Assembly (NCBI GenBank): GCA_009676745.1
Contig: CP046062.1
Span: 1,411,501-1,475,500, forward strand
Origin: Leuconostoc mesenteroides subsp. mesenteroides
GTDB taxonomy: Bacteria > Bacillota > Bacilli > Lactobacillales > Lactobacillaceae
DNA: 64,000 nucleotides
Reading direction: 5' to 3'
Under the pieces are notes generated by a model. It saw only the letters and a program-made list of their open reading frames with translations, was not told where the DNA came from and searched no databases. Position 1 is the first letter of the stretch, and the number at the start of each line of letters is the position of its first letter. Positions 10,852 to 60,054 of the stretch are shown here, one piece after another. A program made the position numbers and the translations under genes.

Positions 10852-11634
10852 ATGAATAATCATGTATCAATTCTGGGGTGTGGTGAAATTGGTGAAACAA
10901 TTTTGCTTGGTGCTATTAATGGTGGATTAGACAAGAATCAAATATCTGTATCGGCACATAGTGAGAAAAGAGTAAACTACTTGATTGAGAAATATGGTGT
11001 AGATGGAAGTACAGATAGTAATATCGCTATGAAAAATACCGACATAGTTATTTTATCTGTGCCTTACACGGCAGTTGATGATGTATTAAATAAAATAGTG
11101 CCAGATATGCAACCCAATACAATCATTGTCTCTTTGATTGCTGAACTTAGTTTAAATGACATACAAGCAAAAATCCCTAATCATTCTGCTATAGTTAGGG
11201 CGATGCCAAGCATTGGCTCTAGGGTCGGCTTTGGTTTGACGCTATTGTCATTCGGAAATAATATCTTAGATACTCAAATTAACAATGTCGAAGCATTTTT
11301 TTCTTTGTTCGGAAAGAATATAGTTGTTTCAGATGAACAACAACATAATATGGCACCACTAAGTAGTAGTGGATTATCTTACGTTCTGTATATGACGGAT
11401 GCATTAATTGAAGGTAATGCAGTACGAGGAATATCTAGAGATGTTTCTTTGCAAATGATGCAAAATATTTTATCCGCTGCAAGCGCGTTACTAGATCAAA
11501 AAAATGGCCAAAATATTGCAGATTTACTACATAGTATGTGTTCCCCAGGTGGAACAGGTATTAAAAGAATTGCTAACCTAGATCGAAAAGGGGTTAAATC
11601 AGCGTTTATGGATGCCATATCTGAGGATATTTAG
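10852..11634 (+). CDS. Pyrroline-5-carboxylate reductase-like protein (ProC/F420-type Rossmann)
   Basis: This 260-residue protein starts at the ATG at 10852, which follows a GGGGGA ribosome binding site; the longer frame from 10795 lacks one. It has an N-terminal Rossmann domain (ILGCGEIGETILLGAINGG) and the ProC C-terminal dimerisation domain with SSSGLSYVLYMTDALIEG and SPGGTGIKRIANLD, which match the substrate-binding helices of pyrroline-5-carboxylate reductases. No proA or proB is nearby. It lies 34 bases before a UvrA-like ATPase gene, with no terminator between, so they probably form an operon. Its real substrate may therefore differ from that of housekeeping ProC and relate to resistance or detoxification. 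Confidence 0.75.
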   Translation: MNNHVSILGCGEIGETILLGAINGGLDKNQISVSAHSEKRVNYLIEKYGVDGSTDSNIAMKNTDIVILSVPYTAVDDVLNKIVPDMQPNTIIVSLIAELSLNDIQAKIPNHSAIVRAMPSIGSRVGFGLTLLSFGNNILDTQINNVEAFFSLFGKNIVVSDEQQHNMAPLSSSGLSYVLYMTDALIEGNAVRGISRDVSLQMMQNILSAASALLDQKNGQNIADLLHSMCSPGGTGIKRIANLDRKGVKSAFMDAISEDI

Positions 11635-11668
11635 ACGAATAATTTATATTTGGTGAAAGGAAAAAATA

Positions 11669-15896: not shown

Positions 15897-15925
15897 TTGC
15901 TAAACAGAACATTTGTTCGTATAAT
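15897..15925 (+). promoter_or_regulatory. SOS promoter with LexA box
   Basis: TTGCTA (15897-15902) and TATAAT (15920-15925) are spaced 17 bases. Between them lies GAACATTTGTTC (15907-15918), a perfect GAAC-N4-GTTC palindrome that matches the Gram-positive LexA/DinR box. LexA bound there would block the promoter, and DNA damage would release it. Confidence 0.85.
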
Positions 15926-15956
15926 GAATTATACACACTTGTTTTGGAGAAAGTCT

Positions 15957-23645: not shown

Positions 23646-23787
23646 TCCAAATAGTATTAACTTGGGTCGAGGTCATAAGCTAATTGTAATAAAGGGTATG
23701 GTTCAATCACAACGTGTGGCTATGATAATTACTAATGTAAAGACCTTATTATTATTATTCAAAGAGCCCTTAAGAGTTTACATGTAA
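23638..23787 (+). CDS. Possible small protein downstream of the nucleotidyltransferase
   Basis: A 49-residue frame starts at ATG 23638, overlapping the preceding stop, with TTGGAGG upstream at a good distance. It begins MIDPNSINLGRGHKLIVIKG. I do not recognise it. It could be a real small gene or the broken C-terminal part of a longer one. Confidence 0.35.
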   Translation: MIDPNSINLGRGHKLIVIKGMVQSQRVAMIITNVKTLLLLFKEPLRVYM

Positions 23788-23942
23788 TTAGTAAATTATA
23801 AAATAATCAGTAGTAAAAATACTGATTAAAGCTTTTATCATCAGAAAAACTATAAAATTATGAACACTAGGATATGATTCTTGGTAAAAACCTCTTTCAT
23901 GCTACAATTGAAGATAAGCAAGAGAGGAGAGATTTATTTACT

Positions 23943-25007
23943 ATGGGAAATATTTTTGATTATTATCTCAGCTACTCAATATTTTTTATTGTGATATCAA
24001 TTGTGATGTCGACAATAACTTTTCTTTTAATCAAGAAAAACCGTTATAGGCTTTTATGTGGTATGGCAACCATTGCAACTATTGTTAGTTATTTTGTCTC
24101 ACTATCCATGATTGTTATCCAGATCAATAACAAAGTGTTAACTTATGTCTATTTAGCCATTCTGGTATTGGTTTTTATACCCGTTTTTTTATTGACATTT
24201 TTAAGCGCATTCCTATTTATCTGGAATGGTATCATAGTTTGGCGACGTGAAAGTCACTCAATTGGCAATATGTTAACTTTAATTATTGGTATTTTACTGC
24301 TAATAATTCCAGTTGTCTTTAGAATTTTGAACCGATATATTCCAAACAATAAAATTATTGATTTTATTGAAAATGTTTCATATAGTTTTCAAAATTATTT
24401 ACTTTTTTGGGTTTTGACGTTTCTCGCATCTTATATGATTACAAAAATAGTTCGTCCAAAGTTTAATAAGGAATATGCTATTATTTTGGGCTCTGGGTTA
24501 ATCAATGGCGATACAGTTTCACCATTGCTAGGCTCAAGAATTATGGTAGCTGCCAACTTTAAAAAACGACAATTCCAGAAGAATAAAGTGCCTATGAAAC
24601 TGATTATGTCTGGTGGTCAAGGTCGAGATGAATTATTGCCGGAAGCGGAAGCTATGAGAGCTTATGCAATTAATCAAGGGGTACCAGAATCTGATATTCT
24701 AGTAGAAAATCAGTCAAAAAATACCTATCAAAATATGCTTTTTTCTAAACAAATTGTTGAAGAAAATGGATTTGATTTACAAAAAGGAATTTTTGCAACA
24801 AATGATTACCATGTGTTTAGAGCAGCTGGGTTTGCACATTTAGTTGGCTTAAACATTGAGGGTATAGGTTCTAAAACAAGTAAATATTTTTTGCCTAACG
24901 CTTTAATTCGGGAATATATAGCTATTCTTTCTAATCATAAACGGTTTCATATAGCTTTTATGTTGATCATTGTGATTATTAATGCATTACCAGTTTTTAT
25001 CGATTAA
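23943..25007 (+). CDS. YdcF/SanA-type membrane protein (DUF218 domain), copy 1
   Basis: This 354-residue protein starts at ATG 23943 behind GAGGAGAG; the frame extends upstream without need. The N-terminal half has about six transmembrane helices. The C-terminal half is a DUF218 domain (YAIILGSGLINGDTVSPLLG, IMSGGQGRDE, NTYQNMLFSK, IFATNDYHVFRA), as in YdcF/ElyC/SanA proteins linked to envelope or lipid-carrier metabolism. It is nearly identical in layout and close in sequence to the protein at 58539-59603, and the next gene is duplicated with it. The segment before it, TAAAAACCTCTTTCATGCTACAAT, split here as TAAAAACCTCTTTCATG and CTACAAT, is also found before the second copy and is likely its promoter (-10 TACAAT). 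Confidence 0.85.
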   Translation: MGNIFDYYLSYSIFFIVISIVMSTITFLLIKKNRYRLLCGMATIATIVSYFVSLSMIVIQINNKVLTYVYLAILVLVFIPVFLLTFLSAFLFIWNGIIVWRRESHSIGNMLTLIIGILLLIIPVVFRILNRYIPNNKIIDFIENVSYSFQNYLLFWVLTFLASYMITKIVRPKFNKEYAIILGSGLINGDTVSPLLGSRIMVAANFKKRQFQKNKVPMKLIMSGGQGRDELLPEAEAMRAYAINQGVPESDILVENQSKNTYQNMLFSKQIVEENGFDLQKGIFATNDYHVFRAAGFAHLVGLNIEGIGSKTSKYFLPNALIREYIAILSNHKRFHIAFMLIIVIINALPVFID

Positions 25008-25027
25008 CACACTTGAGGAAATATAAC

Positions 25028-25426
25028 ATGAAAAAGATTAGTTTAATCATTGCAGGCGTATTGACATTAAGTTTAGTGATTGGTCTAGCAATACAGGCAG
25101 GTAATTATTATAACAACACTTACCAGACATCAAAGGCGTATACAAAGGCTCCATTAAAGGTTCCTGATCGTGAAGAAACAAAAGATGACAGTGGCAAGGT
25201 AATTAAAGGGTCTTACAGTTATCAGTACCATTTTGAATTTGTGACCACTGAAGGTACTAAAAAAAGCATCGCTTTTGAACTCTCTGGAGAAAATGTGACA
25301 CCATTTAAGCCAGGGGAATTTTTAGAAGCGGAGGTATCGAATACCAGAGTTGTATATGGTCCGAATGGAATTAAACAAAGTAAAATCCCAAAATCAGTGT
25401 TAAAAAAGATTTCAGTAATTGAATAG
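25028..25426 (+). CDS. YxeA family secreted protein (DUF1093), copy 1
   Basis: This protein has 132 residues from ATG 25028, preceded by GAGGAAA. A signal peptide or anchor (ISLIIAGVLTLSLVIGLAIQ) is followed by the YxeA/DUF1093 beta-rich domain with YSYQYHFEFV and a repeated K/E pattern. The role of the family is unknown; it occurs often next to YdcF-like proteins or ABC exporters in Firmicutes. It lies 20 bases from the YdcF-like gene and is followed by a terminator. A close copy is at 59626-60024. Confidence 0.8.
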   Translation: MKKISLIIAGVLTLSLVIGLAIQAGNYYNNTYQTSKAYTKAPLKVPDREETKDDSGKVIKGSYSYQYHFEFVTTEGTKKSIAFELSGENVTPFKPGEFLEAEVSNTRVVYGPNGIKQSKIPKSVLKKISVIE

Positions 25427-25477
25427 CATTTACAGACATTTAAGATAAACATTTGAAATAGTAATGCGAAATGATAT

Positions 25478-34087: not shown

Positions 34088-34424
34088 TTTCGCACAATGT
34101 TTTGAATTTCAATCATGATGATAAACAAATGTCTGAACTGTTAAGTCATGAAAAAAATAGCGACTAAAACAGTAACATAGGACAAACTAAAATCGAATCT
34201 GGCTCTCTGGAGAAACAAATGTCTCCCCCACCCCCAAGACGTTGAGTAACATTGTACATCCGAGTTCAAAGAACGTCGGTGATCAGATGCCAGTGAACGA
34301 CGGTTCATTTAATAAAAATAGTCGCTTGTTTCGGCAAGACATTCGTGCCGAAACAAGCGTAGAGCGTCAATTCTTAAGAAATCAAAAGAAGATTGAGCAA
34401 GAACGGGCTCAAGAAGAGTATTAG
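34088..34424 (+). pseudogene. C-terminal remnant of a MobP2-like relaxase
   Basis: The stretch matches the 3' end of the relaxase at 45230-45584 in DNA and protein. In frame from 34242 it encodes MSNIVHPSS then GSFNKNSRLFRQDIRAETSV and ERQFLRNQKK, very close to GSFNKISRLWRQDIRAETIA and ERQFLRNQKQ at the relaxase C-terminus. Similarity begins around 34088, but stops and shifts break the upstream part. The catalytic domain is absent. It shows that a second copy of this relaxase gene once lay here. Confidence 0.75.
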
Positions 34425-35172
34425 TCACAACTATCAAGAAAATGTAAAATGACAATCATATTATGACATCAACTGAGTAGTTAAGGATTTACACAAGTGG
34501 TAAAGAGGGTTATTATCATCATCTACAACCATAAGATATTGTGATTAAAACTTCTCGCATGCTTTTAAAAATTGGCGAATAAATTTAACATGACTGTGCT
34601 TATTAATTCATTGTTTATAAGTTTAATGTATGTAGATAGTTGTTTTTTCTAATACTAGCCAGGACAGCAATAGTGTAAAGTAAACTAACCGCTACATTTT
34701 TCAACTTTTTGGTGCATATAAATATGAATAATTACTTTACAATATTGGAACATTACGTCTACTTTTAAATAAAAGCAAAAAAGTACCCTTAATTTAAAAA
34801 TTTCTCTCGATGTACAATTAAGGGTTTTATTGTATTATTTTCAATATAAATTAACTTTTTTGATGCGAGATATACGGAATTAATTATTTATAGCATATAC
34901 ATAAATGTAACAGCAGACAAGAAAATCTAAATACGCATTTTTCAATTTGTGAAGTAAGTCTATTTTAAATTAATTTCTAATATTACGTCCAATACATTGA
35001 AATTTCTTCGGATCATGAAATATCATCAAATTGTGCAACGAATATTTTTATTAACTCGAAAAAGGTGATTAGACATATATTGAATAAAAATTTTATATAT
35101 CAATATATTTATCATTGAAAAATAAAAATAGATGATGTATCATGTATTTATCAATAAAAAGGAAATGAGGAT
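34425..35172. other. 750-base stretch without a gene; one terminator-like hairpin
   Basis: I find no open frame with a start signal. A hairpin at 34785-34825 (ACCCTTAATT / AATTAAGGGT) followed by TTTTATTG may be the terminator of a lost gene. The rest is AT-rich and featureless to me. Confidence 0.4.
34785..34835 (+). terminator. Orphan terminator-like hairpin
   Basis: ACCCTTAATT (34785-34794) and AATTAAGGGT (34816-34825) are separated by 21 bases and followed by a T-rich tract. No intact gene ends just upstream. Confidence 0.5.
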
Positions 35173-39659: not shown

Positions 39660-40374
39660 TGTTTAAAACAATTAAATATAGTAATCAGTATTTAGCAAAG
39701 GCTTTATTTAAAAGTACTTTGCTTTTTGGTATTTGAATATGTTTCAATTGTTGATGCAAGGACAATATAGTTGGTGGTAATTGTCGCCTATTGTTTTAAG
39801 TATTCTGTTGATTGGTTTGGTTTTACAAGAACTATGCCCCAGAACATTCTGATTTTATTTCAAAGTACCTGAAAACAGTTAAGTTGCGCCAAATGATAAG
39901 ATTGAAATTTAGTAAGAATAAAATGGTTAGTACTTTTGCTTTTGACCTAATTAAGTTTAGGCGACAATTAGAAGAGTTGAAACCCCCAAAAGGGTTATTG
40001 CAGATTTCAAAAGGTATTGATTCACAGCAATGTCTAATTTGAATGATATAGTGATATTAGGACGTTAACTTGGTTTTTATATTTTGATTAGTATGCAAGC
40101 TGATCCAGATTCTTTGCCAATGACAGTCTGTAACCAATTAAATATGCGTATTAACATGGGTGTGCCAACACCAGAAATTGAAAAAATGGTGTTTCCTGAT
40201 AATGAAAAACAGTTGCGCCCTTTGTCTTCACATTTGAAAGGGTGGGGCTTTATTAAGATTGGGGATAGTCAAGTTAAGTCGTTTTTTGCACCAGAAGTAC
40301 CAAAAGATTTTAATTTACATGAATATATGCGTGAAAATATCGCAAAGTACCAGGTAAAGCAAAATAAAAAATAA
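39660..40374 (+). pseudogene. Decayed TcpA/FtsK-like conjugation coupling ATPase
   Basis: ATG 39660 with AGGAG upstream opens MFKTIKYSNQYLAKALFKST, but stops appear after 25 codons. The reading resumes in pieces, and from about 40055 it encodes ILGR-stop-LGFYILISMQAD, PDSLPMTVCNQLNMRINMG and GWGFIKIGDSQVKSFFAPEV. The last part is the C-terminal ATPase segment of TcpA/FtsK-type coupling proteins (GRxxGFxLIxxxQ, LPxxVRxQxxxRIxxG). The Walker A region is deleted, so the gene cannot work. It supports an old transfer operon here. Confidence 0.65.
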
Positions 40375-41139: not shown

Positions 41140-41770
41140 GTAAACCCTGATTGATTTGGTACTTTGAACAAGACTGCTAGCCTGACAAAGAGTGTTTTCA
41201 ATAAAAACAATGATGTATTGAAACTGCATTTTACTGCCATGACTGATTATGGTGGTAGTCAATTCACAGGTCGTGTCATTGCCTACTTCAAATAATACGC
41301 TCGTGGTCCAATTCAAAAACCTAAGTCACAACTTAAATACTGTAACACTAACTGCTCATGATAAGAGCATCAACACGGCAACATTTGAAGCACCAAGTAA
41401 CGTAGTTGCTGATAGTTCACGTACGAAGAAAACATCGGCAAATAGCAATACAGCAAACGGTAAATCCATCATCAATCGTGACAAAGTTTCTAAGTTAGGT
41501 ACGTTAACCTTTGCTAATCAAAAGGAACTCGAAGTTAACGAAAGTGAAGCAAAAATTGCGACACAACAAAAAATAGTTGCCCAGTCTGATGACTCTGATA
41601 CACAAACTAGTATTGATAATGCGCGTGATGCTATTACTCAAATACGAACACAAATCAGTGATGCACAAAAAAATATTCAACGTGCCAAGACAAATATTAG
41701 TCAATATGAAAAGACAAAAAAGCAAGTTCAAAAAGGCAAATCGTTGTTGCCAAAACCAACCGATTTGTAA
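41140..41770 (+). pseudogene. Frameshifted protein of a transfer region (family unknown)
   Basis: The first frame (about 41140-41291) encodes TLNKTASLTKSVFNKNNDVL, HFTAMTDYGGSQFTGRVIAYF and ends; the second from 41249 reads NNTLVVQFKNLSHNLNTVTL, then a Ser/Thr/Asn-rich linker and a long coiled coil (DNARDAITQIRTQISDAQKN). Joined they make a beta-domain plus coiled-coil protein whose start is missing, because an N-terminal part is not seen. I do not recognise the family; it may be part of the relic transfer operon. A terminator follows. Confidence 0.45.
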
Positions 41771-41774
41771 TTCT

Positions 41775-41813
41775 AAATAGTCCAAGAAATTCCCTAATGG
41801 GCTATTTTTTATA
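41775..41813 (+). terminator. Rho-independent terminator
   Basis: AAATAGTCC (41775-41783) pairs with GGGCTATTT (41799-41807) through one G-T pair, followed by T residues. Confidence 0.75.
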
Positions 41814-41861
41814 GCAAAGCCCGGTTACAGATAGTGTTGTGACTGGTAATCTCTTGAAATG

Positions 41862-41893
41862 CCCGCATGGCGGGATTAAAACCACAAGGTTTT
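41862..41893 (+). promoter_or_regulatory. Two adjacent hairpins before the mobilisation genes (possible oriT)
   Basis: CCCGC-ATG-GCGGG (41862-41874) and AAAACC-ACAA-GGTTTT (41878-41893) are two compact inverted repeats just upstream of the RHH protein and the relaxase operon. An oriT usually has such structures and sits here. A TTAACCTG segment (41901-41910) could hold the nick site, but I recognise no known nic consensus. Confidence 0.4.
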
Positions 41894-41943
41894 CCTTTCC
41901 CCTTAACCTGTTCCAAATTCACTAAATATTATATGGAGGTTGT

Positions 41944-42321
41944 ATGAAGGGTATAACAAAAACAATTAAAAATATTGATGAACATGCTTTGAAAATCATT
42001 GAAACACAAGCATCAAAAGAAAATGTCTCGTCCAGTCAATTAATTCGCGAACAAATTGAAGATTATGCTAAGCGACTTGAGGAAGATAACGCAGCAAAAA
42101 TATTGCATAGCTATCTTGACGATTTAATCATGGCTAACAACAATTTTGTGCATGGATTAAATGACAATACAATTGCGATAGGTGAAATGTTTAAAACAAT
42201 TCTAGTGCGTCTTGAAATGTATTTTCCAGACTTAAATGATGAGGTTGAACGAATTCAAAAAAACGCTTGCCCTCAGGAAAAAAATTTGCCAAAGTCAATC
42301 GACTTTGATGAGTTTGAATAA
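41944..42321 (+). CDS. RHH-type relaxosome accessory protein (MobC-like)
   Basis: This 125-residue protein starts with a ribbon-helix-helix: TIKNIDEHALKIIETQASKE and VSSSQLIREQIEDYAKRLEE, the size and layout of RHH mobilisation accessory proteins. A helical part of about 60 residues follows. GGAGG lies 4-5 bases before the ATG. It is the first gene of the mobilisation operon and probably binds the nearby inverted repeats to help the relaxase open oriT. It may also repress its own operon. Confidence 0.75.
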   Translation: MKGITKTIKNIDEHALKIIETQASKENVSSSQLIREQIEDYAKRLEEDNAAKILHSYLDDLIMANNNFVHGLNDNTIAIGEMFKTILVRLEMYFPDLNDEVERIQKNACPQEKNLPKSIDFDEFE

Positions 42322-42336
42322 ACAGAAGAGGTTCAA

Positions 42337-43122
42337 ATGAAAAATTATAAACGTGGTCTCTTTGCGAGAAAAATTTTATTGGTCTTTGTCATATTGATAG
42401 GTTTTGTGTATTTAAACCGTGTGTCAATTTTACAAAAAATTGTAGCCATTGGTTCCCAATCACAGATCGTTAATATTGATAAACAAAGTAGCTCACCAAC
42501 AAAAAATGATGAGCTAGTTAACTTGAAATATACTGGTCAAACAGTTGTAGAGGTCAACCATAATCAACCAACATTTACACAAGATGATTTACAAATAAAA
42601 CAGGGTGGATGGCAAAAAATTTCATCACTAGATTGGCTAGGTAGACCTCAGGTTGCTAATGCATTGCTTAACCAAAAATTGATGCCGCCCTCTCAAAAGT
42701 ATAAAGCGCGTGAACGATTAACAATCAAAACGCCAGGTTACCATGCCATCAAAACGGGAACGAATAATACAGACTGGCTATACAACCGTAGTCATCTAAT
42801 TGGGTATCAATTTACTGGCCTAAACAATGAAGCCAAAAATTTGATCACAGGGACACGACAATTAAATGCAGATAGTCGAGTGAATGCAAAAAGTATGGTG
42901 ACTTATGAAACAGAAATTGCTGATTATCTACATCAGTCAAAAAATAATTATGTGCGATACCAGGTGAAGCCAATTTACAAAAATGTTGAGTTAGTTCCTC
43001 GTGGTGTTCATATGATGGCACAGTCAAATGACAATACTTTGAAATTTAATATCTATGTTTTTAACGTTCAAGATGGCTGGACAATCAACTACTTAAACGG
43101 TAATGCTGAAAGGAGTGAATAA
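42337..43122 (+). CDS. Membrane-anchored DNA/RNA non-specific endonuclease (EndA/Spd-like)
   Basis: The 261-residue protein has an N-terminal membrane anchor (FARKILLVFVILIGFVYL) and a beta-beta-alpha-metal nuclease domain. The active-site region DWLYNRSHLIGYQFTG matches the (D/N)RxHLIGxxxxG motif of EndA/Spd-type nucleases; His is the general base and NLITGTRQLNADSR carries the metal-binding Asn. The gene is between the RHH protein and the relaxase. Nucleases of this kind are found in some Gram-positive mobilisation regions, where they could act at the cell surface. The link to transfer is inference. Confidence 0.85.
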   Translation: MKNYKRGLFARKILLVFVILIGFVYLNRVSILQKIVAIGSQSQIVNIDKQSSSPTKNDELVNLKYTGQTVVEVNHNQPTFTQDDLQIKQGGWQKISSLDWLGRPQVANALLNQKLMPPSQKYKARERLTIKTPGYHAIKTGTNNTDWLYNRSHLIGYQFTGLNNEAKNLITGTRQLNADSRVNAKSMVTYETEIADYLHQSKNNYVRYQVKPIYKNVELVPRGVHMMAQSNDNTLKFNIYVFNVQDGWTINYLNGNAERSE

Positions 43123-43820
43123 ATGAAAGATGCAATAGAATTCAAAACAAGTCAAATGAAGGCACTCATCAAAAGAAGAAATATGAGACAACGTTACCCG
43201 AAGATATTCCTTTAAAAGTGAAATCAGAACTGGATTTTATTGACAAACTTTTGCAAGAGTTCGAAATTGATGAGGAAATTTTTGCAAAGCAAGGTAAGAC
43301 AATTAATATCAAAAATTCACGAGATAAAGAATGGTATTTTCAACAAATGAAGCATTGGACTGAAGGACATCCAAAGGCTACAAATGGACAGTTTGGTAAA
43401 AGCACACTGTATAGATTTGCTTTGCATTTCTTCGTAGAAAATATTGCGCTTAATGCCAACAATGCACGTCTCAATTACTCGGAACTAGCCCAGAAGGTAA
43501 ATGATGCCAACTCCACAAAAAGTGATTCAAAATTGACTGCACAATTGGCAAATGTTGAGGATTTATTAGGCTTTCTTCTAACCATGCAGCAACGCCAACT
43601 TGAGTATATTCCAGAAGGTGTTAATTTAGAAAATGGTTTTGTTAAATATGCCATCAACCCAATTAATCCAACAGAGTTCCAACAATTTGGTACACCAACA
43701 GAACTCAATCCAAACAATGAATTGGCACAATCTTATGAAGAATATAAAAAAATTCGGAGTCGCGATAAGCAGCTGATCAAAAAATATCACCAAACAGGAG
43801 GACAACTTGATGACGACTAA
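43123..43820 (+). pseudogene. Mobilisation-region protein, frameshifted near its start
   Basis: ATG 43123 has a strong AAAGGAG site but its frame ends after 30 codons. A second frame is open from about 43140, runs through YETTLPEDIPLKVKSELDFI without a good start, and continues to 43820. Joining them near 43150-43165 gives a protein of about 230 residues. The body contains EIDEEIFAKQGKTINIKNSR and WTEGHPKATNGQFGKSTLYR and an acidic, helical rest. Its likely function is in mobilisation, by position between the nuclease and the HTH protein, but I recognise no family. The shift may be a sequencing error. Confidence 0.55.
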
Positions 43821-44124
43821 AAAGCACAATCAAAGAAAAACACAACTAACAAAGTATTTAGAACAACTTGATGAGTTCAATTGGCATCATCCGACGCAAG
43901 TTAGTGAGATGGCTGACAGTCAACATGAACGCGATAATCGCACGTACTATTTGGCTCAGATAAGTTTAATTCTGTTTAATAACTATCAACAATCCTACAT
44001 GCAAATTGCTCAAATGCTGAACATGTCCTCCAAAACAGCCCGTCGTTTGACAATTGAATATGAACAAGACTTTGGTAGTTTAGAAGAGATTATGGAGGAA
44101 TTGCAAAATGGCGAAGACTGGTGA
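43810..44124 (+). CDS. Small HTH protein of the mobilisation operon
   Basis: The 104-residue protein starts at ATG 43810 behind AGGAGG and overlaps both neighbours. The C-terminal half has a helix-turn-helix: SYMQIAQMLNMSSKTARRLT. The N-terminal part (KKHNQRKTQLTKYLEQLDEF) is basic. It is probably a DNA-binding accessory or regulator of the relaxase gene, with which it overlaps by 17 bases. I do not recognise a named family. Confidence 0.7.
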   Translation: MTTKKHNQRKTQLTKYLEQLDEFNWHHPTQVSEMADSQHERDNRTYYLAQISLILFNNYQQSYMQIAQMLNMSSKTARRLTIEYEQDFGSLEEIMEELQNGEDW

Positions 44125-45584
44125 AATTGCTGCATTTGCCCTGGGTGAAAAAAAGACGGCAATGGTCAATTTACCAGCGCAGTTTGTCACGTCTAGTACA
44201 GCAGATATGAAGGGACAAAAATACTCAGATTTAGTTGACTATGCTAATAATTCGGAAAAGACAAACGATCTTAATAATGAGTCCATGAACGATTTAATTG
44301 ACTTAAAGGAACAATTTAGCAAGCCTGGCTATGCTAACCGCAATTCTGCGGTAACAGAAACGCATCCAATATTTGGTAGCGAAAAACTAAATTATGAGAA
44401 TCACGATATTTCTGTATTGAGAAGAAATTTGGATGAGGCACAAGAAAATGGAAATAATATCCATGAACTCGCTTTCTCAATCAGAGGTGATTGGTTAGTT
44501 AAAAACAATCTCTATGATCCCGAAACCCGTATGATAGACCAAAATAAGTTGAAGCATGCAGAACAAGAGGTTGCTAAGACGCTAATTAACAAAGGATTTA
44601 ATTTACCTTTGGGAGAAAATGAAAGTGATGTTGTTTGGTTTGGTGTGATTCATCAGGATACTGACCACCTGAACATGCATCTGTGGTTTGCTAAAAAAAG
44701 CCGAGAAACACGACAAGAAATGTTAAAGCAAGAAGGTAAGTATAAAAGGACAGCCAATCGGGGTAATCCCCTTAGAAGTGATTGAACAAGCCAAACGGCA
44801 GTTTAGAAAACAGTTAATGTCATCGCAGGAACTAATGCGTCATCAGGAAATATTGAAAGGTGTTGGCGGATTTAAAAAAGAGATCGTTGAGATAGCAACC
44901 GCAAATCTATTAAATGATCGTCATGCCAAAGCCATTAAACAAATTTATGATGCTTTACCCCAAGACATGAAAGGTCGGTGGCAGGTTGGTAACGCTCATT
45001 TAACATCAGAAAAAGGCAAGATGACAAGAGCAAATCATTTAACAAAGCAACTGTTAGATGATTTGTTCGCAAGAGAGCTAAAACCGGAATACGAAGGATT
45101 TAAGTCGTTAGCACAAGAATATGATGCCATTAATATTGAAGACCAGGGTGTGATGCATAAGGGGCAACCCAAGTGGTCTGAGAATAAGGAAGATGAACTA
45201 AGAAAACGCTTAGCGAATCAACTCTATAAACATTTAGCACAAATTGAAGACACCTCAATAAATGATATTGTCCAACAAATGTCTGGACTGCTAAGCCATG
45301 TTCAAAAACGTGATAAAGGCGATAACGCAGACAAAACTAAAATCGACTCTAGCCCTCAGGAAAATAAGTTCCCTTCCAAGTCGTTGAGCAACACTCCAAA
45401 TCCGAATCACAAGCACATAAATGCTCAAATGTCAGTGCGAGGTGGCTCGTTTAATAAAATTAGTCGTTTGTGGCGTCAGGACATTCGTGCTGAAACAATC
45501 GCAGAACGTCAGTTTTTAAGAAATCAAAAACAAAATGAACGAGAGAAGACTCAAGAAGAATGCCATTCCAAAATAGCAAGATAA
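44108..45584 (+). pseudogene. MobP2-like relaxase, split by one frameshift
   Basis: The first frame (44108-44785, 225 residues) starts behind GGAGGAATTG and contains the N-terminal relaxase domain: FSKPGYANRNSAVTETHPIF and the metal-binding triad HQDTDHLNMHLWF. The second frame begins upstream of 44778 (GVIPLEVIEQAKRQF, SSQELMRHQEILKGVGG) and ends at 45584 with a helical C-terminus. The two overlap, and one base near 44757-44765 (GGGG run) would join them into about 490 residues, the normal size of MobP2/MobL-type relaxases. The enzyme would nick oriT and pilot the strand. The break may be a sequencing error. A copy of its C-terminus is at 34088-34424. Confidence 0.75.
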
Positions 45585-45656: not shown

Positions 45657-45687
45657 AATTGTCAATTGAAGTTGACAATTGTATAAT
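45657..45687 (+). promoter_or_regulatory. Promoter with inverted repeat for the SIR2-HerA operon
   Basis: TTGTCA (45659-45664) and TATAAT (45682-45687) are 17 bases apart. AATTGTCAA (45657-45665) and TTGACAATT (45672-45680) form a perfect 9-bp inverted repeat that covers the -35 and spacer, so a repressor could shut the promoter. Its start codon is 33 bases downstream. Confidence 0.75.
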
Positions 45688-45720
45688 CAGTCTAGATAAA
45701 CTTGAAAGAAAAAATCTTAT

Positions 45721-46806
45721 ATGAATGATAAAAAAATACCAGAAGAGTTACTAATACATATCCAGAGTTTCATTTCTACTGATTCACTTTTATTTATTGG
45801 GTCAGGCATTTCGGCAGCAGAAGGTATTTCTGGAATGCCAGGGTTAGCTCAGGAGCTTAGGAAGTCTGTGCCTCAAGTAATAGATCAGTCTTGCGACAAA
45901 TACAATCTGGCACAAAAATGGAAGCCTATTGAGCAAAAGCTTTCTTCTGGAGAGGGTTTGGAAAGTGTTTTATTAGAAGAAATGAATGATAATGGCCCAT
46001 TAAACGAAGAAATTCTCAGCATAATCAAAAATATTTCGTGGTCGTTAATTTTTAAAGATGATCAAAATGTTTTAAATAGTGTTTTAGAAGGCTCTAAAAC
46101 ATTACGTTTATCAACTTTTATGGACAAATTCAACCACAAAAATGGTCAATTATGCATTATAACAACAAATTATGATCGACTAGTAGAATACGCATTAGAT
46201 GATTTAAATATTACTGTCAATACTTTATTTACTGATGGTGCGCTGCCGCGTTTTGATAAAAATTCTGCACTGGAACGCGGACAAACATACAGCGTAGTTG
46301 ACCGTAAATATAGACAACAGAAGCGTAATGATTATGCATTGCTTTTAAAGCCACACGGGTCGATAAGTTGGATGAAAAACAAGAAAAATGGTTCCATAGT
46401 TTCTTCTTTGAGTTTATCTAATAAAAGTCCTTGCATTATTACACCTGGAGGTACGAAATATATACAAGGATATAATTCTCCATTTAATGAAATTATTCCA
46501 CTAATGAACACAGAAATAAATGAAAGAAATAAGTATATATTTATAGGTTATGGTTTTAATGATGCTCACCTCGAAAATCAGCTCAGAAATCCACAAAACA
46601 GAAGAAAACCATGTTTGATTATTACTAAATATTTATCAGATACTCATGAAATTTTGAATCTATTAGAAAACTACGTTTTAATTAAAGAATCTACAAGCGA
46701 TGAAAAGTCAACTACTATTATTTATAAAAAAGACAAAAATGTAAAAAAATTCAAAAGTGAGGATACATTGTGGGATATACAATGTCTAGCAGAAAAGATA
46801 TTATGA
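45721..46806 (+). CDS. SIR2-family NADase, defence protein
   Basis: This 361-residue SIR2-fold protein has the NAD-binding motifs FIGSGIS (25-31), TTNYDRL (148-154), the catalytic-His segment KPHGS (210-214) and FIGYGFND (274-281). In prokaryotic defence systems such SIR2 domains cleave NAD+ when phage infection is sensed, starving the cell. Its stop overlaps the start of a HerA-type ATPase by 4 bases (ATGA), so the two are one operon. A SIR2 + HerA pair is the Nezha-type system, in which the two proteins form a large complex. The promoter has an operator-like repeat. No sirtuin zinc-finger or deacetylase signature is seen. The system call is based on this pairing. Confidence 0.85.
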   Translation: MNDKKIPEELLIHIQSFISTDSLLFIGSGISAAEGISGMPGLAQELRKSVPQVIDQSCDKYNLAQKWKPIEQKLSSGEGLESVLLEEMNDNGPLNEEILSIIKNISWSLIFKDDQNVLNSVLEGSKTLRLSTFMDKFNHKNGQLCIITTNYDRLVEYALDDLNITVNTLFTDGALPRFDKNSALERGQTYSVVDRKYRQQKRNDYALLLKPHGSISWMKNKKNGSIVSSLSLSNKSPCIITPGGTKYIQGYNSPFNEIIPLMNTEINERNKYIFIGYGFNDAHLENQLRNPQNRRKPCLIITKYLSDTHEILNLLENYVLIKESTSDEKSTTIIYKKDKNVKKFKSEDTLWDIQCLAEKIL

Positions 46807-48473
46807 CAAATAAATTTGATAAAGAGGGTAACACCTCAATAGGAAAAGTTGTTTACGTGGATTCAGAAAATGTTCTTGCTCAACTTACAACTGAAAATTT
46901 TGACTCTGTGCATGTTGGAGCAATGGTCGGCATATATACAAGTTTTGGGGGTGTTTATATAATTGGAACAGTTTCAAAAATAACAAGTCAGTTTGATGAA
47001 AGCGAAGATAATGACAAAATATCATCAAACCAGTTTAAATTAAATATAGTCGGGACTTTTTATGAAAAAATTGGAGAAAAAAATAATATTTTGAGAAAAG
47101 GTGTCTCTATATACCCTCGTCTTAATGATGTTGTATTTGCTTTTTCACAACTAAATCTAACTTTATTAATGACAAGCTCATCATCAAACGTGAGTGCCGA
47201 AAAGCAACTTGATATTGGTTCTTTTTCAATTAATGACACTTCTAGAGCAGTTTTAGATGGAAATAAATTTTTTCAAAAACATGCTGCAATAGTTGGAAGT
47301 ACGGGGTCGGGTAAAAGTTGGACTGTAGCTACATTATTGGAAAAAGCTTCCAAATTAAATTATGACAACATTATCGTATTTGACATTCATGGTGAGTATT
47401 ACCCTTTAGCCGAAGGAAAAGAAAAAATAGCCGATAAATTATCATTGGGACGTGATAGTGACTTTCAATTGCCATATTGGCTTCTAAATAGAAGCGAATT
47501 GTTATCCATGTTTGTAGATCATGGTGACAATGATGCTCCAAATCAAATTTCACGTTTTACGAAACATATTCTAGATTTAAAAAAACAATCTATAAAATGT
47601 GATGAATTTAATGATATAACTGTCGACTCTCCAATTCCATTTAATATTAAAAATGTTGTTGAATTACTAAAAAAAGATGATGAGGATATGATTCCCACAA
47701 GTGGGAGTAGAACCAAAAAAGGCATTTGGAATGGTAAGTTAACGAGGTTTATTTCTAGACTGGAAACAAAGATGAATGATGCTCGTTATGGTTTTATGTT
47801 TAATCCAAAAGAGGAAACTATGGAACCAAGCTGGCTCCTTGAATTTTACTCCTCATTGTTAAGTAACAATATTGAAAGAAAAGGTATCAAAATTATTGAT
47901 TTATCCGAAGTTCCATCCGATATTTTACCCACTGTTACGGGTACTCTAGCCCGATTATTATTTGACTTTCAAAGCTGGACTTTGTCATCTGATAGAACAC
48001 CAGTTGCGATTTTGGCCGACGAAGCACATCTTTATATTCCTCAAAATGGAAATTCCTCAGAAAAGCAGGCAACGCGAAATTTTGAAAGAATTTCTAAAGA
48101 GGGTAGAAAGTATGGAATGTCTCTGGTGATTGTAAGTCAACGACCTTCTGAAGTAAATGCAACTGTACTTAGTCAGGCTTCTAACTTTGTAGTATTAAGA
48201 TTAAATAACGAAAGTGACAAAAATAGAATTAAAAATCTCCTACCAGATAATATGAATGATACTTTAAGTCAATTACCGCTTTTAGAATTGGGCGAGGCTA
48301 TAATCATTGGAGATTCAATAATTCTTCCTAATAAAATTAAAATAGATACACCCACATTAAAACCAGATAGTAATACGATTGCTTTTTGGGATGATTGGGA
48401 AACAAAGGCAGTCACAAATAATCATCTTTCTAGGACCATAAAAAATATTTTAAGTCAATCCTTTTTGCCTTGA
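46803..48473 (+). CDS. HerA-type ATPase/helicase, partner of SIR2
   Basis: The 556-residue protein starts at ATG 46803 within the SIR2 stop (ATGA); the frame upstream adds 11 residues without a ribosome site. An N-terminal HAS-barrel (SIGKVVYVDSENVLAQLTTE) is followed by a FtsK/HerA RecA-like fold with Walker A GSTGSGKSWT (about 163-172), Walker B VAILADEAHLYIP (about 401-413) and the SQRPSEV sensor segment (about 442). HerA proteins form hexamers. With SIR2 it makes a defence complex in which HerA senses or processes phage DNA and activates or restrains NAD cleavage. No NurA nuclease, the usual repair partner, is present. Confidence 0.85.
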   Translation: MTNKFDKEGNTSIGKVVYVDSENVLAQLTTENFDSVHVGAMVGIYTSFGGVYIIGTVSKITSQFDESEDNDKISSNQFKLNIVGTFYEKIGEKNNILRKGVSIYPRLNDVVFAFSQLNLTLLMTSSSSNVSAEKQLDIGSFSINDTSRAVLDGNKFFQKHAAIVGSTGSGKSWTVATLLEKASKLNYDNIIVFDIHGEYYPLAEGKEKIADKLSLGRDSDFQLPYWLLNRSELLSMFVDHGDNDAPNQISRFTKHILDLKKQSIKCDEFNDITVDSPIPFNIKNVVELLKKDDEDMIPTSGSRTKKGIWNGKLTRFISRLETKMNDARYGFMFNPKEETMEPSWLLEFYSSLLSNNIERKGIKIIDLSEVPSDILPTVTGTLARLLFDFQSWTLSSDRTPVAILADEAHLYIPQNGNSSEKQATRNFERISKEGRKYGMSLVIVSQRPSEVNATVLSQASNFVVLRLNNESDKNRIKNLLPDNMNDTLSQLPLLELGEAIIIGDSIILPNKIKIDTPTLKPDSNTIAFWDDWETKAVTNNHLSRTIKNILSQSFLP

Positions 48474-48785
48474 TTTTTCATATCAAAGAGAACAGATTAG
48501 AAGTCTCACAAATTAATTAGTCAGTTTTCTAATCTGAAAGCAAAAAATATCATAGTCAGCATACTAAAAATTCGATTGATGAACCCATCATGCTTGCATA
48601 TTTTTAATTCAAAATTTTATTTGTTATATAAAACATGAACAAAATTGTATGGTGTAAATATAGTTTATGGCATCTAGTAATTAAACTTAAAAAAGATACT
48701 GGACATTTACTATTTTTAAAAACTGCTAGTTTTTGTGACAATCTGACTGCTGAAAAGACACTATTTACAGAAACTGAGATAGGTA
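48474..48785. other. Intergenic region after HerA, no gene I can support
   Basis: About 310 AT-rich bases. A 69-residue frame at 48635-48844 overlaps the DUF3800 start in another frame, has no ribosome binding site and no recognisable content, and I take it as chance. Confidence 0.4.
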
Positions 48786-50094
48786 ATGTTGAACATAAAT
48801 ATATATTTCGACGAAAAGGGTCCAACAAAGACAATAAGGGGTAACCTAAATCCTGGACAGCCAAAATTTAACTTCTATTCTAAATCCAGTGATAATGTTC
48901 CTGCTTATTGTGGCGTATTTGTTGTAGTTCCGAAGAAGAACCAGAAATCATTTGATACAGACTATCAACGCATAGAACAAAATTATCTGAAAAATCATAA
49001 CAATAAACAAATGAAAGAGATAAAAGGTAAAAATATCTTCAAATCTAAAAATTTTCCTTTGAACGAAATACGTGATTCCAAAGCAATTTTTTTAATCAAA
49101 TATTGAATTTACTTGAGATAAATGATTGTTTAGTACAATTAAGTATTTTTGATAAAAGTCAGGTTTTAATTGTCGATAGGTTGTCTGAGTGGCTTTTTTA
49201 CTTGAAAATTCAAATTTTTTTAAAAATAAAAGTAGAGGAATATCAGTAAATCTGGTCCTTTACGTTTTAACAAAGTTTATTCATAATGAAGATAAGAATA
49301 AAATGGCTTTAGATTCTCTATTGAACGAAAATTTGACTACTTATCAAATACTTAGACGAATCAAAGGCGAAATGATAGATTTTATTCAAGAAAATAAAAA
49401 TAATAAAAAAATGAAACGACAACTGTCAAGCTACAAGGAAATCATTAAATTTATTAATAATTCAGGGAATTTGAACAAAAAAACTAGCTGTTCTTTTCAA
49501 TTCCCCGTTAATCAAATTGCCTATGGACTGGAATTGTGGCTTTCAGAAATTGATGATAGTTCGGACTTTAGCTATGTTAGTTTATTTTTAGATGAGGATG
49601 CTCCAAAAGTAGGATATGTTGATATTAATGCTAATAACATACATGAGAATTGTAGGTCTCAAGAATTTCAAGGAATTAGAGCAGCAGACCTACTAGCGAG
49701 TCTCTTTGGAAAATTACTGAGTTCTTTTGAGAAAAATAGCGAGTACGATAAAGGTGAACCCCAAAAAATAAAAAAATTACCAAAAAATTTTTTTAAGAAA
49801 CTATCTGTTGAACAAGAAAAATTAGTTGCAAATTTAAATAGGCTGCTTATTGAAACTCCATACAATTTTAGTATTGTGCACAGTGAGTACGCTGATTATT
49901 TGTTTACAATGTTATCATGGTTTGAATTATCAACTGAATCCGACCACTTTGATTCAGAGAACCATCTTTATTTGACACTATCAAAGATGGATCAATACTT
50001 TATTCAGATGGGAACACAAGGGAATTTAGTCCGTGCGGCCGGATTTTCAAACACAAAAGAAGCTATAGAAAGCAAATTGTTAAAACCGTTCTGA
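48786..50094 (+). pseudogene. DUF3800 protein, broken by two frameshifts in T runs
   Basis: ATG 48786 starts MLNINIYFDEKGPTKT, the N-terminal (Y/F)xDESG-type strand of DUF3800 with FDE kept, and runs to 49106. The frame then changes in a T7 run (49087-49093): QILNLLEINDCLVQLSIFDK, SQVLIVDRLSEWLFY. It changes again in a T6 run (49194-49199) into the long frame to 50094, which holds the DUF3800 C-terminal Asp motif FQGIRAADLLASLFGK. Repairing both runs gives about 435 residues. DUF3800 is an RNase H-like predicted nuclease family found in defence islands. It follows the SIR2-HerA pair on the same strand, 312 bases away. It may be inactive, phase-variable or mis-sequenced. Confidence 0.65.
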
Positions 50095-50364: not shown

Positions 50365-52230
50365 ATGATCAATTCGTCTGATGAAAAACAAATAAATAAA
50401 ATCCTGAAGTCTCCAGAACAGTACATCGTTGCGAATTTTCAACGTTCATATGTTTGGAATAATAATGAACAGGACGTTTTGATTAATGACTTTATAAATC
50501 ATATGAAAACGTCCCAAAATGGAGAATACAAATGTACTAATTTTTTTCTAGGAACCATTTTGTCATATAAAGAAAAAAATAAATATTTTATAATCGATGG
50601 TCAGCAGAGGTTAATTACCATTGCTATTTTGTTGACAGTGATTCGGGATTTGGCCTTTCCAATGGCAAAGTTCAAAAGAAATGCAGAGCACTCTCAGAAC
50701 TTACAAACAGAAATCAACGATTTATTAACCTTGGATTCTAATTCCTACAGAATTCTGCCAAATCAAAACTACGGACAAAACTTTTTTATCAGCGTTCTTT
50801 ATAGCGAAGATAGTGAAAACAACATGATTGCCTATAGTCTCAATCCCAGACAATCTTTAAATCCAGCGAAAGATTATTTTTGGCGCATTTATCACCAAGC
50901 TTACTTAAATATCAATAAAACATTAAATAATGCTTTTGAACCCAAATGGACGAAAAGCAAGCAGCTTATTTTTTTGAGCGGTTTATTAAATCAAATAAAA
51001 AACTCAAGCTTCGTTGATTTAAATGCAACAAATAAAGACGATGCATACAAAATATTTGCTGATATTAATTTTAAGGGAAAGAAATTAGTTCCTGTAGACT
51101 TAGCAAAAAATTTGATTTTTTCATTTATTCGGGATGAGGATACCTCTTTCATTGACAACCTAAACGATCAGTGGGCCACTTTTTATAATTTTGCCGAACA
51201 ACATACATCTTTCTCATTTTCCGAATTTTTTAAGTATATCTGGTTTGTTTTTTTTCCTAAAAACCTAAATGCTGAGCTTTTAACTGATGATAGTTATATC
51301 GGAGATAGCATCTCAGAATTTTTAGAAGATTTCGAAAACCATCGACCAAGAAGCACCAAAATTAAATATATTGAAACTGCCGTAAAGTCAATGCGCAATA
51401 TAGTGGAAGTATATAATGAATTACAAACCCCCGAAAATATAAGTGTTTTCAAAAGACACAACTGGCCAAACTACAAAATTAAGTTGCAGTTAATTTCTAA
51501 AACGGCAATAAGTCACTCTTTAAAAAAATATTTGTTTTTGCTTTTAAGGATACACATGCTATTTTTAAAAAGTCCTGAGTCTATCAAGGTTGAATATAGA
51601 CAATTAATTGATATTGTAGCAGATATCGTTATCCTGCATAATGCTATAAGTGAATCTGACGAATTAGCAAAAATAGACGTTCTTATGTTAATCGAGGAAG
51701 AACTTGACCAATTGTTTATTCAAATTCTTACAACTGATAAAAACACAAGGTTAGATTTTGTGATTTCGAATTTTCTAAAATCTTTTGATTCAAAAATCAC
51801 ATCTGATGTAGAACAATTAATGATTGAATCATTATCAAAGCTTACCTACAGCAAACATTCAGATGAATTAATAAACTTCACTACGAAACTTTTTTTGATG
51901 CGTTTCAACGAAAGCGAATATAAAACAGAAAATCCAACGATTGAGCACATTTTTGACGAAAGTAGTCCAAATAAAGTTGTGTTGCAAATTGGTAATTTGA
52001 TTATTTTGGAAGAAAACTTGAATAAAGAATGTAATGATTTAAAGAATAAAAATACTGGTACTTTTTCACTAAAAGATAAAAGCGAAGTTTACGATAAAAG
52101 CCACTATCAAAATGTTATCAAGTTTCAAAACGATTTTGAAAAATTAAATTTGTTTGACATAAATCAAATCAATAGTAGAGGTCGACAAATGGGGGAATCG
52201 TTTATCAGGAAAATGTTTTATACAGACTGA
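50365..52230 (+). CDS. DUF262/DUF1524 fused type IV restriction-like protein (GmrSD family)
   Basis: The 621-residue protein begins with a DUF262 (GmrS, ParB/Srx-like) domain: NFQRSYVWN at 24-32 and the catalytic IIDGQQRL at 76-83, with the DGQQR motif fully kept. The C-terminal third is DUF1524 (GmrD, HNH nuclease) with NPTIEHIFDE near 524-533 and NLIILEENLNKECNDLKN; the classic ExHxxP is EHIFDE, so the proline is lost but His is present. Such fusions cut DNA carrying modified bases (for example glucosylated hydroxymethylcytosine) of phages, using nucleotide hydrolysis. AAGGGG precedes the ATG. It stands alone between intergenic regions in the island. Confidence 0.85.
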   Translation: MINSSDEKQINKILKSPEQYIVANFQRSYVWNNNEQDVLINDFINHMKTSQNGEYKCTNFFLGTILSYKEKNKYFIIDGQQRLITIAILLTVIRDLAFPMAKFKRNAEHSQNLQTEINDLLTLDSNSYRILPNQNYGQNFFISVLYSEDSENNMIAYSLNPRQSLNPAKDYFWRIYHQAYLNINKTLNNAFEPKWTKSKQLIFLSGLLNQIKNSSFVDLNATNKDDAYKIFADINFKGKKLVPVDLAKNLIFSFIRDEDTSFIDNLNDQWATFYNFAEQHTSFSFSEFFKYIWFVFFPKNLNAELLTDDSYIGDSISEFLEDFENHRPRSTKIKYIETAVKSMRNIVEVYNELQTPENISVFKRHNWPNYKIKLQLISKTAISHSLKKYLFLLLRIHMLFLKSPESIKVEYRQLIDIVADIVILHNAISESDELAKIDVLMLIEEELDQLFIQILTTDKNTRLDFVISNFLKSFDSKITSDVEQLMIESLSKLTYSKHSDELINFTTKLFLMRFNESEYKTENPTIEHIFDESSPNKVVLQIGNLIILEENLNKECNDLKNKNTGTFSLKDKSEVYDKSHYQNVIKFQNDFEKLNLFDINQINSRGRQMGESFIRKMFYTD

Positions 52231-58219: not shown

Positions 58220-58426
58220 ATGGCACAAAAAATGATTTATTTTGGCTTTATGTTTGGAGTTTGGCTCGTCTATATTGGGTCTATGCTCCCTATATTTTTA
58301 CTCTTTATGAGTTTGGGTCAATCGCTACATGTTGCTATGGCTGTTGCTAGTGTGCTGACCTTTTTATTTATTATCGTTCAAAGAACCTTTACAGAGTTAC
58401 ATGTAATCAATCACACAATAACATAA
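58220..58426 (+). CDS. Small membrane protein, unknown function
   Basis: The 68-residue protein has two transmembrane helices (YFGFMFGVWLVYIGSMLPIF, HVAMAVASVLTFLFIIVQRT). The ribosome binding site is weak, and the ATG at 58220 lies only 10 bases past the preceding T run. It precedes the YdcF-YxeA pair. I recognise no family. Confidence 0.5.
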   Translation: MAQKMIYFGFMFGVWLVYIGSMLPIFLLFMSLGQSLHVAMAVASVLTFLFIIVQRTFTELHVINHTIT

Positions 58427-58488
58427 ACTCTTGTCATCAAAAAATTTTAAGAAATTTTGAGCAATAGTTTCTGCTTTTTTTGTAAAAA

Positions 58489-58520
58489 CCTCTTTCATGC
58501 TACAATTGTAGTTAAGTAAG
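58489..58520 (+). promoter_or_regulatory. Promoter region shared with the first YdcF copy
   Basis: GTAAAAACCTCTTTCATGC followed by TACAAT (-10) is also found at 23882-23908 before the first YdcF gene. A TTGGTA- or TTTTGT-like -35 lies 16-17 bases before. The shared block suggests the duplication copied the promoter. Confidence 0.6.
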
Positions 58521-58538
58521 AGAGGGGATTCATTTATT

Positions 58539-59603
58539 ATGGGCAATATTTTTGATAACTATTTTAGTTATTCTATATTTTTTATTGCCGCATCAGCTGT
58601 GATGTCGTCAATAAATTTTCTTCTAATCAAGAAAAACCGTTATAGACTTCTGTGTGGTATGGCAACCATTGCAACCATTTTTAGTTATTTTGTCTCACTA
58701 TCTATTATTGTTCTCCAGATCAATAACAAAGTGTTGACTTATGTCTATTTGGCTGTGTTGGTATTGATTTTCATACCCATTTTTTTATTGACATTTTTAA
58801 GCGCATTCTTGTTTATATGGAATGGCATCATAGTTTGGCGGCGTGAAAGTCATTCAATTGGAAACATGCTAACTTTAATTATTGGCATTTTACTGCTACT
58901 AATTCCAGTTGTCTTCAGTATGTTGAATAGATATATTCCAAACAACAAAATTATTGATTTTGTGGAGAATGTTTCATACGGTTTTCAAAATTATTTACTT
59001 TTTTGGGTTTTGACATTTCTTGCATCTTATGTGATTACAAAAGTGGTTCGTCCAAAATTTAATAAAGAATATGCTATTATTTTGGGATCCGGTTTGATTA
59101 ATGGTGATACGGTTTCACCATTGCTCGGCTCAAGAATCATGGTAGCTGCTAACTTCAAAAATCAACAATTCAAGAAAAATAAAATGCCTATGAAATTAAT
59201 TATGTCTGGTGGCCAAGGGCGAGATGAGTTGTTGGCCGAAGCTGAAGCTATGAGAGAATATGCAATTAATCACGGGGTGCCAAAATCTGATATTCTAGTA
59301 GAAAATCAATCAAAAAATACTTATCAAAATATGCTTTTTTCTAAACAAGTTGTTGAAGAAAATGGATTTGATTTACAAAAAGGGATTTTTGCAACAAATG
59401 ATTACCATGTTTTTAGAGCAGCGGGTTTTGCACATTTAGTTGGCTTGAATATCGATGGTATAGGCTCTAAAACAAGTAACTATTTTTTGCCTAATGCATT
59501 AATTCGTGAATATATAGCAATTCTTTCTAATCACAAAAAATTTCATATAGCTTTTATGCTAATCATTGTGATTATTAATATATTGTCCATATTTATCTCT
59601 TAG
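58539..59603 (+). CDS. YdcF/SanA-type membrane protein (DUF218 domain), copy 2
   Basis: This 354-residue protein is a close paralogue of 23943-25007: MGNIFDNYFSYSIFF against MGNIFDYYLSYSIFF at the start, and the same six-helix N-terminus and DUF218 domain (YAIILGSGLINGDTVSPLLG, MSGGQGRDELLAEAEAM, ATNDYHVFRAAGF). Most differences are conservative. GAGGGG is upstream. Its neighbour downstream is also duplicated. The pair sits right at the transfer/surface module, so its function may be linked to envelope changes needed there, though family roles are unclear. Confidence 0.85.
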   Translation: MGNIFDNYFSYSIFFIAASAVMSSINFLLIKKNRYRLLCGMATIATIFSYFVSLSIIVLQINNKVLTYVYLAVLVLIFIPIFLLTFLSAFLFIWNGIIVWRRESHSIGNMLTLIIGILLLLIPVVFSMLNRYIPNNKIIDFVENVSYGFQNYLLFWVLTFLASYVITKVVRPKFNKEYAIILGSGLINGDTVSPLLGSRIMVAANFKNQQFKKNKMPMKLIMSGGQGRDELLAEAEAMREYAINHGVPKSDILVENQSKNTYQNMLFSKQVVEENGFDLQKGIFATNDYHVFRAAGFAHLVGLNIDGIGSKTSNYFLPNALIREYIAILSNHKKFHIAFMLIIVIINILSIFIS

Positions 59604-59625
59604 AATACAGGAGGAAAAATATAAA

Positions 59626-60024
59626 ATGAAAAAAGTCAGTTTAATCATTGCAAGTCTATTGACAATAAGTTTAGTTATTGGCCTAGCAATTCAGGTCAGA
59701 AATTATTATGACAACACCTATGCAGCGTCCAAGGCGTATACTAGGGCGCCCGTAAAAGTTCCTAATCGTGAAGAAACAAAAGACGACACGGGCAAGGTAA
59801 TTAAAGGATCATACAGTTATCAGTATCATTTTGAATTTGTGACCGCTGATGGTACTAAAAAAAGCATTTCTTTTGAGCTATCAGGAGAAAATGTCAAACC
59901 ATTTAAACCAGGCGAATTTTTGGAAGCGGAAGTATCGAACACTAGAGTTTTATATGGTCCAACTGCCATTAAACAAAATAAAGTACCAAAATCAGTGTTA
60001 AAAAAGATTTCAGTAATTGAATAA
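59626..60024 (+). CDS. YxeA family secreted protein (DUF1093), copy 2
   Basis: The 132-residue protein is a close paralogue of 25028-25426, with the same N-terminal anchor (VSLIIASLLTISLVIGLAIQ), the YSYQYHFEFV strand, and end KSVLKKISVIE. AGGAGG precedes the ATG. It lies 22 bases from the YdcF-like gene, as in the first copy. Confidence 0.8.
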   Translation: MKKVSLIIASLLTISLVIGLAIQVRNYYDNTYAASKAYTRAPVKVPNREETKDDTGKVIKGSYSYQYHFEFVTADGTKKSISFELSGENVKPFKPGEFLEAEVSNTRVLYGPTAIKQNKVPKSVLKKISVIE

Positions 60025-60054
60025 AATTTACAGACATTACTCTGTGAAAATGAA

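Follow-up and report, generated by a model that had tools for sequence, protein, structure and literature searches.

The 64-kb stretch of DNA analyzed here, referred to as the window, contains two adjacent genes encoding a SIR2 NADase-type protein and a HerA-type ATPase. The question raised by this locus is whether the two genes form an anti-phage operon, how such an operon would act, and on what kind of element it resides. In the reading we favor, to which a probability of roughly 0.88 is assigned, the pair is a two-gene SIR2-HerA anti-phage operon, which acts via the loss of NAD+ and was brought into the chromosome as cargo by an integrated conjugative element that has since decayed.

Gene structure and family assignment

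The SIR2 gene occupies positions 45721-46806 of the forward strand as an ORF of 361 aa and is followed on the same strand by the HerA gene at 46803-48473, which encodes 556 aa if translation starts at ATG 46803. The motifs that the initial annotation had described as intact, namely FIGSGIS, TTNYD, KPHGS, GSTGSGKS, and ILADEAHL, are all found in the translations of the two genes in the ORF list of the window. The 4-base overlap of the genes, which had also been pointed out, holds for a HerA start at ATG 46803 but not for the alternative in-frame starts at GTG 46770 and ATG 46782, where the GAGG before GTG 46770 is, as read by eye, a possible Shine-Dalgarno sequence. The start at ATG 46803 is plausible because a start codon is present in frame at the position of the 4-base overlap in 54 of 79 relatives, and overlapping gene ends appear to be a common trait among the relatives.

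In the Pfam profile searches, which the initial annotation had proposed together with structure prediction, the SIR2 protein matched PF13289 and the HerA protein matched PF01935, both above the cut-off. The scores on the NCBIfam models SIR2_antiphage (NF042942) and HerA_antiphage_2 (NF042944) were 31.9 and 326.6 bits, below the respective cut-offs of 500 and 850 bits. All 54 relatives compared for SIR2 keep the NADase residues N150 and H212, and all 12 compared for HerA keep K171, D406, and E407, which belong to the Walker A and B motifs. Among solved structures, profile searches place the SIR2 protein nearest to the SIR2 subunits of SIR2-HerA systems. The comparison of predicted folds gave the same picture, as its ten best matches are SIR2 proteins of SIR2-HerA systems, with the tenth tied with ThsA.

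The systems listed among the closest to the window pair are PsSIR2/HerA (PDB 8w9l, 8wld, 8wiv), which we take to be from Paenibacillus, and the SIR2-HerA complex 8yhx. The E. coli Nezha/Sir2-HerA system (PDB 8j4u, 8su9, 8uae) and V. cholerae Nezha are alike in that a SIR2 protein with the catalytic N and H is followed by HerA. The label "Nezha-type" given initially is thus acceptable in a loose sense; in a strict sense it does not fit, since E. coli Nezha (8j4u) is remote, with identities of 16% for SIR2 and 22% for HerA. The HerA of the HerA-DUF4297 complex (PDB 9c1m, 8ziq, 8zit; 8xav/8xau are presumably this defence complex as well) is as close to the window HerA as that of the SIR2-HerA systems, or closer. 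However, its partner is a DUF4297 nuclease, whereas the partner in the window is a SIR2 protein, and assignment to the HerA-DUF4297 type was rejected on this basis. The SIR2/HerA pair of the Streptococcus thermophilus GAO_19 system likewise occurs in a lactic-acid bacterium, a likeness drawn from its published description; it adjoins restriction-modification (R-M) systems, whereas the window pair sits behind the relaxase gene mobL.

Among the candidates, 363 of 3252 for SIR2 and 7844 of the 8000 scored for HerA pass an E-value of 0.001. Four close relatives (P0002-P0005) show identities of 68-87% for SIR2 and 77-93% for HerA, and the SIR2 and HerA hits are probably the same pairs, since three of the four match in contig size between the two lists (4800, 9187, and 24226). 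Beyond these four, the identity among the best 120 listed per gene is at most 37% for SIR2 and at most 49% for HerA. In the best 80 of 500 confirmed genome loci, whose records come from many phyla, HerA is immediately preceded by a SIR2 gene in 79; the 80th locus is truncated by the end of its contig.

The family models, the profile and structure matches, the catalytic residues, and the pairing in 79 of 80 loci identify the gene pair as a defence operon of the SIR2-HerA type (GAO_19, loosely "Nezha"), as the initial annotation had claimed. It is an ordinary, well-supported addition to the already known SIR2-HerA systems, contributing one divergent branch from an apparent food lactic-acid bacterium, and known homologs protect against different phages.

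The opposite view, that a housekeeping DNA-repair HerA merely lies beside a sirtuin and has no defence role, is very improbable. The repair HerA 4d2i does outscore some defence HerA proteins as a relative of the window HerA. However, the top-scoring relatives by both sequence and fold are defence HerA proteins, and the partner is a SIR2 protein of the SIR2-HerA kind, set apart from ordinary sirtuins. The grouping with sirtuins or repair HerA, which had been named as evidence against a defence operon, is therefore not seen for SIR2 and is seen for HerA only in the rank of 4d2i. The distribution also argues against a repair role: the operon DNA is absent in 18 other genomes of the genus save for a 58-base stretch in one (E = 1.5e-5), HerA has one partial match among 300 other Lactobacillaceae genomes (E-value threshold 1e-30), and a NurA-type family was not found among the neighbors scanned. 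Judged from these genome comparisons, the SIR2-HerA pair is accessory.

Proposed mode of action

In the SIR2-HerA defence reading, both proteins would be made from one transcript starting at the sigma-70-type promoter at 45659-45687, and the overlapping gene ends suggest translational coupling of SIR2 and HerA. By analogy with the solved relatives, the products would assemble into a SIR2 dodecamer and a HerA hexamer. The binding of HerA would open the active site of SIR2, and the complex would hydrolyze NAD+ after phage infection. The resulting loss of NAD+ would stop growth or kill the cell ahead of phage release.

NAD+ depletion with abortive infection is our best guess for the mode of action because of the activity data on known relatives. 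Complexes of 12 SIR2 and 6 HerA subunits, and the opening of the NAD+ pocket by HerA binding in the S. aureus system, are described in PMC12198126. In V. cholerae Nezha, replacing SIR2 N168 or H227 or deleting HerA abolished immunity (PMC11559045). Two S. thermophilus SIR2/HerA pairs are protective according to PMC11514479, one acting against sk1 and, to a moderate degree, SW13 and c2, and the other against three streptococcal phages. Two S. thermophilus homologs, both active, share identities of only 17.9% (SIR2) and 22% (HerA) (PMC12322248).

It is also conceivable that the main activity of the pair is not NAD+ depletion and that it attacks the DNA of phages or plasmids as a nuclease or translocase complex. 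The closeness of the window HerA to the HerA of the DUF4297-nuclease complexes and the nuclease activity of Sir2-HerA reported in PMC11559045 and PMC12198126 are consistent with such a role. However, neither protein matched a nuclease family in the profile searches, the NADase residues are invariant, and the loss of defence in V. cholerae upon their replacement (PMC11559045) points to NAD+; we consider the nuclease mode improbable.

Promoter region and possible transcript end

The promoter at 45659-45687 on the forward strand consists of a -35 element, TTGTCA (45659-45664), a 17-nt spacer, and a -10 element, TATAAT (45682-45687), with 11 of 12 consensus matches. The scan of 3.8 kb gave 26 promoter-like sites, compared to 18.9 expected in shuffled sequences, and this one ranks first. 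The perfect 9-bp inverted repeat described earlier is present at 45657-45680 as AATTGTCAA-N6-TTGACAATT (arms 45657-45665 and 45672-45680) and covers the -35 element. This repeat may be an operator, in which case a DNA-binding protein would repress the operon and keep it silent until infection or excision of the element.

The position of the repeat on an 11/12 promoter favors such repression, as does the fact that its 7+7 core, TTGTCAAN6TTGACAA, has a single perfect site in the whole genome. However, the 64-kb window contains 27 perfect 9-bp repeats, whereas 20 first-order Markov sequences averaged 6.95 (spacer 0-12, overlapping repeats merged), and as a chance event the repeat is only moderately unusual. 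Any perfect 8-bp repeat within 150 bp upstream is found in only 5 of 79 relatives, and these five have no sequence in common; the 79 regions include L026, L040, and L064, in which the SIR2 ORF is split or short and the stretch scanned is therefore not the true promoter. The three genome sites with one mismatch to the core also argue against an operator, as two of them lie inside ORFs and one between ORFs. With up to two mismatches, the core has 49 sites on one strand of the whole genome, compared to 18 for the reversed-pattern control; an operator regulon was rejected as a reading of this excess, since the core is a palindrome that includes the -35 hexamer.

In agreement with the earlier reading of the sequence, no adjoining regulator gene was found. 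The nearest candidate that looks HTH-like to the eye is an ORF of 105 aa within the mob module (43807-44124), and this ORF has no Pfam match. The earlier statement that the repeat implies regulation is weakened by these results, and repression of the operon at this site seems unlikely.

A stem-loop lies just 3' of HerA at 48493-48536 on the forward strand, with an 11-bp outer stem and no U-run. In the fold of 48470-48570, its energy is −15.1 kcal/mol with a z-score of −2.32. The consensus scan gave no terminator call for it, and it is a possible transcript end of the operon.

Chromosomal location and the decayed element

The window corresponds to G000:C1:1411501-1475500 and is part of a 1,777,316-bp contig, which places it in the chromosome. 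The plasmid location assumed by the initial annotation was rejected on this basis; the idea of a mobile element was right in kind, with the element being a chromosomal, decayed remnant of a conjugative element. A search of mobL against 72,556 plasmid records gave no match at E 1e-20. Seventeen plasmid records, all from Leuconostoc, resemble positions 40-64 kb of the window, with the best place in each at 80-87% identity and mostly in the adhesin gene uasX.

The decayed mob module lies at 41230-45581 on the forward strand, and a self-comparison matched it to L005:1774-2115 (84% nt) and L005:2194-6256 (88% nt). The mobL gene at its end is split in two forward-strand ORFs at 44108-44785 and 44778-45584, of which only the first matches PF18555, and the operon starts 136 bp past its end. 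In the second copy, 44.6 kb further along, where 2194-6256 of L005 is 88.2% identical to 41567-45581 of the window, mobL is intact as a single ORF of 493 aa. Upstream of this copy are a VirB4-like ATPase (PF12846, 332 bits), a Rep_trans protein, a CHAP/lysozyme protein, and an SSB, which would be expected of an integrated conjugative element; no site-specific-type integrase was found among the proteins scanned. Pieces matching a 458-aa ORF of that element (L004:10465-11841) precede the mob copy of the window at 39660-39900 and 40024-40345. Based on these pieces and the 88.2% match, the window copy looks like a shortened, decayed remnant. A further remnant of the mobL 3' end is located at 34111-34464 on the forward strand (75% nt to L005:5936-6281).

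The cargo behind the split mobL also includes a second defence-like gene at 50365-52230 on the forward strand, encoding a 621-aa DUF262/GmrSD_N protein (PF03235, 92 bits), which matches the PADLOC HEC-06 and Orf5 models with E-values down to 1.6e-29. Between HerA and this gene are two consecutive ORFs without a Pfam match, at 48786-49106 and 49189-50094, which are perhaps, as judged by eye, the halves of one broken gene for a DUF3800-like protein.

Behind the second mobL copy are an ApeA-like HEPN gene (L005:8224-9537), a second SIR2-HerA pair (L005:9677-10939 and 10893-12593, about G000:C1 1505177-1508093), and a DUF4365 protein, with an FRG-domain protein beyond a further mobL-like remnant. 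The two pairs are 48 kb apart and are not duplicates, since the second scores 85 and 66.5 bits on the profiles where the first scores 467 and 946, and its SIR2 is 28% identical to the first over 211 residues. The genome has four SIR2_2-domain ORFs in total, and the other two lie at G000:C1:412001 and 1548847, in frames of 533 and 1072 aa. Two sister genomes have frames of 1063 aa, which is close to the length of the longer one.

The mobL 3' end as a possible cargo site

Among 20 stretches taken from 16 related genomes, eight have genes with matches to defence families that start 0.2-4.3 kb behind mobL (L188, L192, L193, L195, L196, L198, L199, and L202; the mobL of L195 is located at the end of L194). 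The families are DolAB (Dodola), HamAB (Hachiman), IetAS, type I R-M, type II and III methylases, and DUF262 with TmtA; behind one mobL is an REase-like gene and, further on, an HKD/Snf2 helicase. The cargo of L197 is a DinG-type helicase only, and that of L190, L191, L194 (first copy), L200, L203, and L204 appears metabolic or other, as judged by eye from N-terminal sequences; L189, L201, L205, L206, and L207 belong to the 20 stretches but lie outside the judged set. Of 20 ORFs tested from behind mobL, 17 gave PADLOC matches at E 1e-5, which is not a frequency because these were drawn from 22 ORFs picked by eye as large or defence-like. As a control, none of 10 ORFs in the 20 kb upstream of the window (10 of the 14 with at least 180 aa) had such a match.

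Of 19 genomes of the genus, 12 contain mobL, whole or in pieces (E 1e-6), and six of these have 2-5 pieces, some being parts of one split copy. Ten DUF262 genes are found in the 19 genomes, five of them within 6 kb behind mobL, including three in one cluster, while two further ones (G293) cannot be placed, as their contigs have no mobL match. Two of nine SIR2_2 genes are within this distance, both in the genome of the window. These counts are descriptive because both families were chosen after being seen behind mobL. In many comparisons between copies, the homology stops no more than some tens of bases from the mobL stop codon, and no more than 15 bases from it for the window copy. The exceptions are L193, L196, L197, L198, and the 34-kb remnant of the window, where roughly 40-220 more bases are common in some pairs, as well as L190, L191, and L201, which have one flank in common.

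The mobL 3' end may be a recurrent slot for defence cargo, which is a proposal of this analysis. Defence-gene hotspots of mobile elements are known in general (for example, PMC9122126), whereas searches of an open-access literature collection showed no report that links a defence slot to mobL in Leuconostoc. A possible, still tentative scheme for the integrated conjugative elements of this genus is that new elements recombine with old mobL copies at this landing slot, which would generate arrays of mob and defence genes, such as the two unrelated SIR2-HerA pairs here, while decayed copies persist as homology sockets. If the slot is a standing one, unknown genes found there in other species would be candidates for defence systems, and the accumulation of defence genes in small genomes could be followed in the arrays. 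The mobL location is a more useful lead than the pair itself.

Additional features of the window

A gene for an ImpB/MucB/SamB-type DNA polymerase is present in two copies of 460 aa each, at 15897-17279 of the window and at L005:17235-18617 downstream of the cargo of the second element, with 73.5% nt identity; it is perhaps an element gene and a hint of more element remnants across the window. Positions 23696-25440 and 58311-60038 form a duplication of 1.75 kb (84.7% nt) that includes a DUF218 gene. Next to the second of these copies is an adhesin-like gene (KxYKxGKxW signal, BspA_v), which resembles UasX of Leuconostoc plasmids. At 7270-9627, an amine-oxidase/desaturase-like gene adjoins a squalene/phytoene-synthase gene, and the two presumably belong to a C30 carotenoid pathway.
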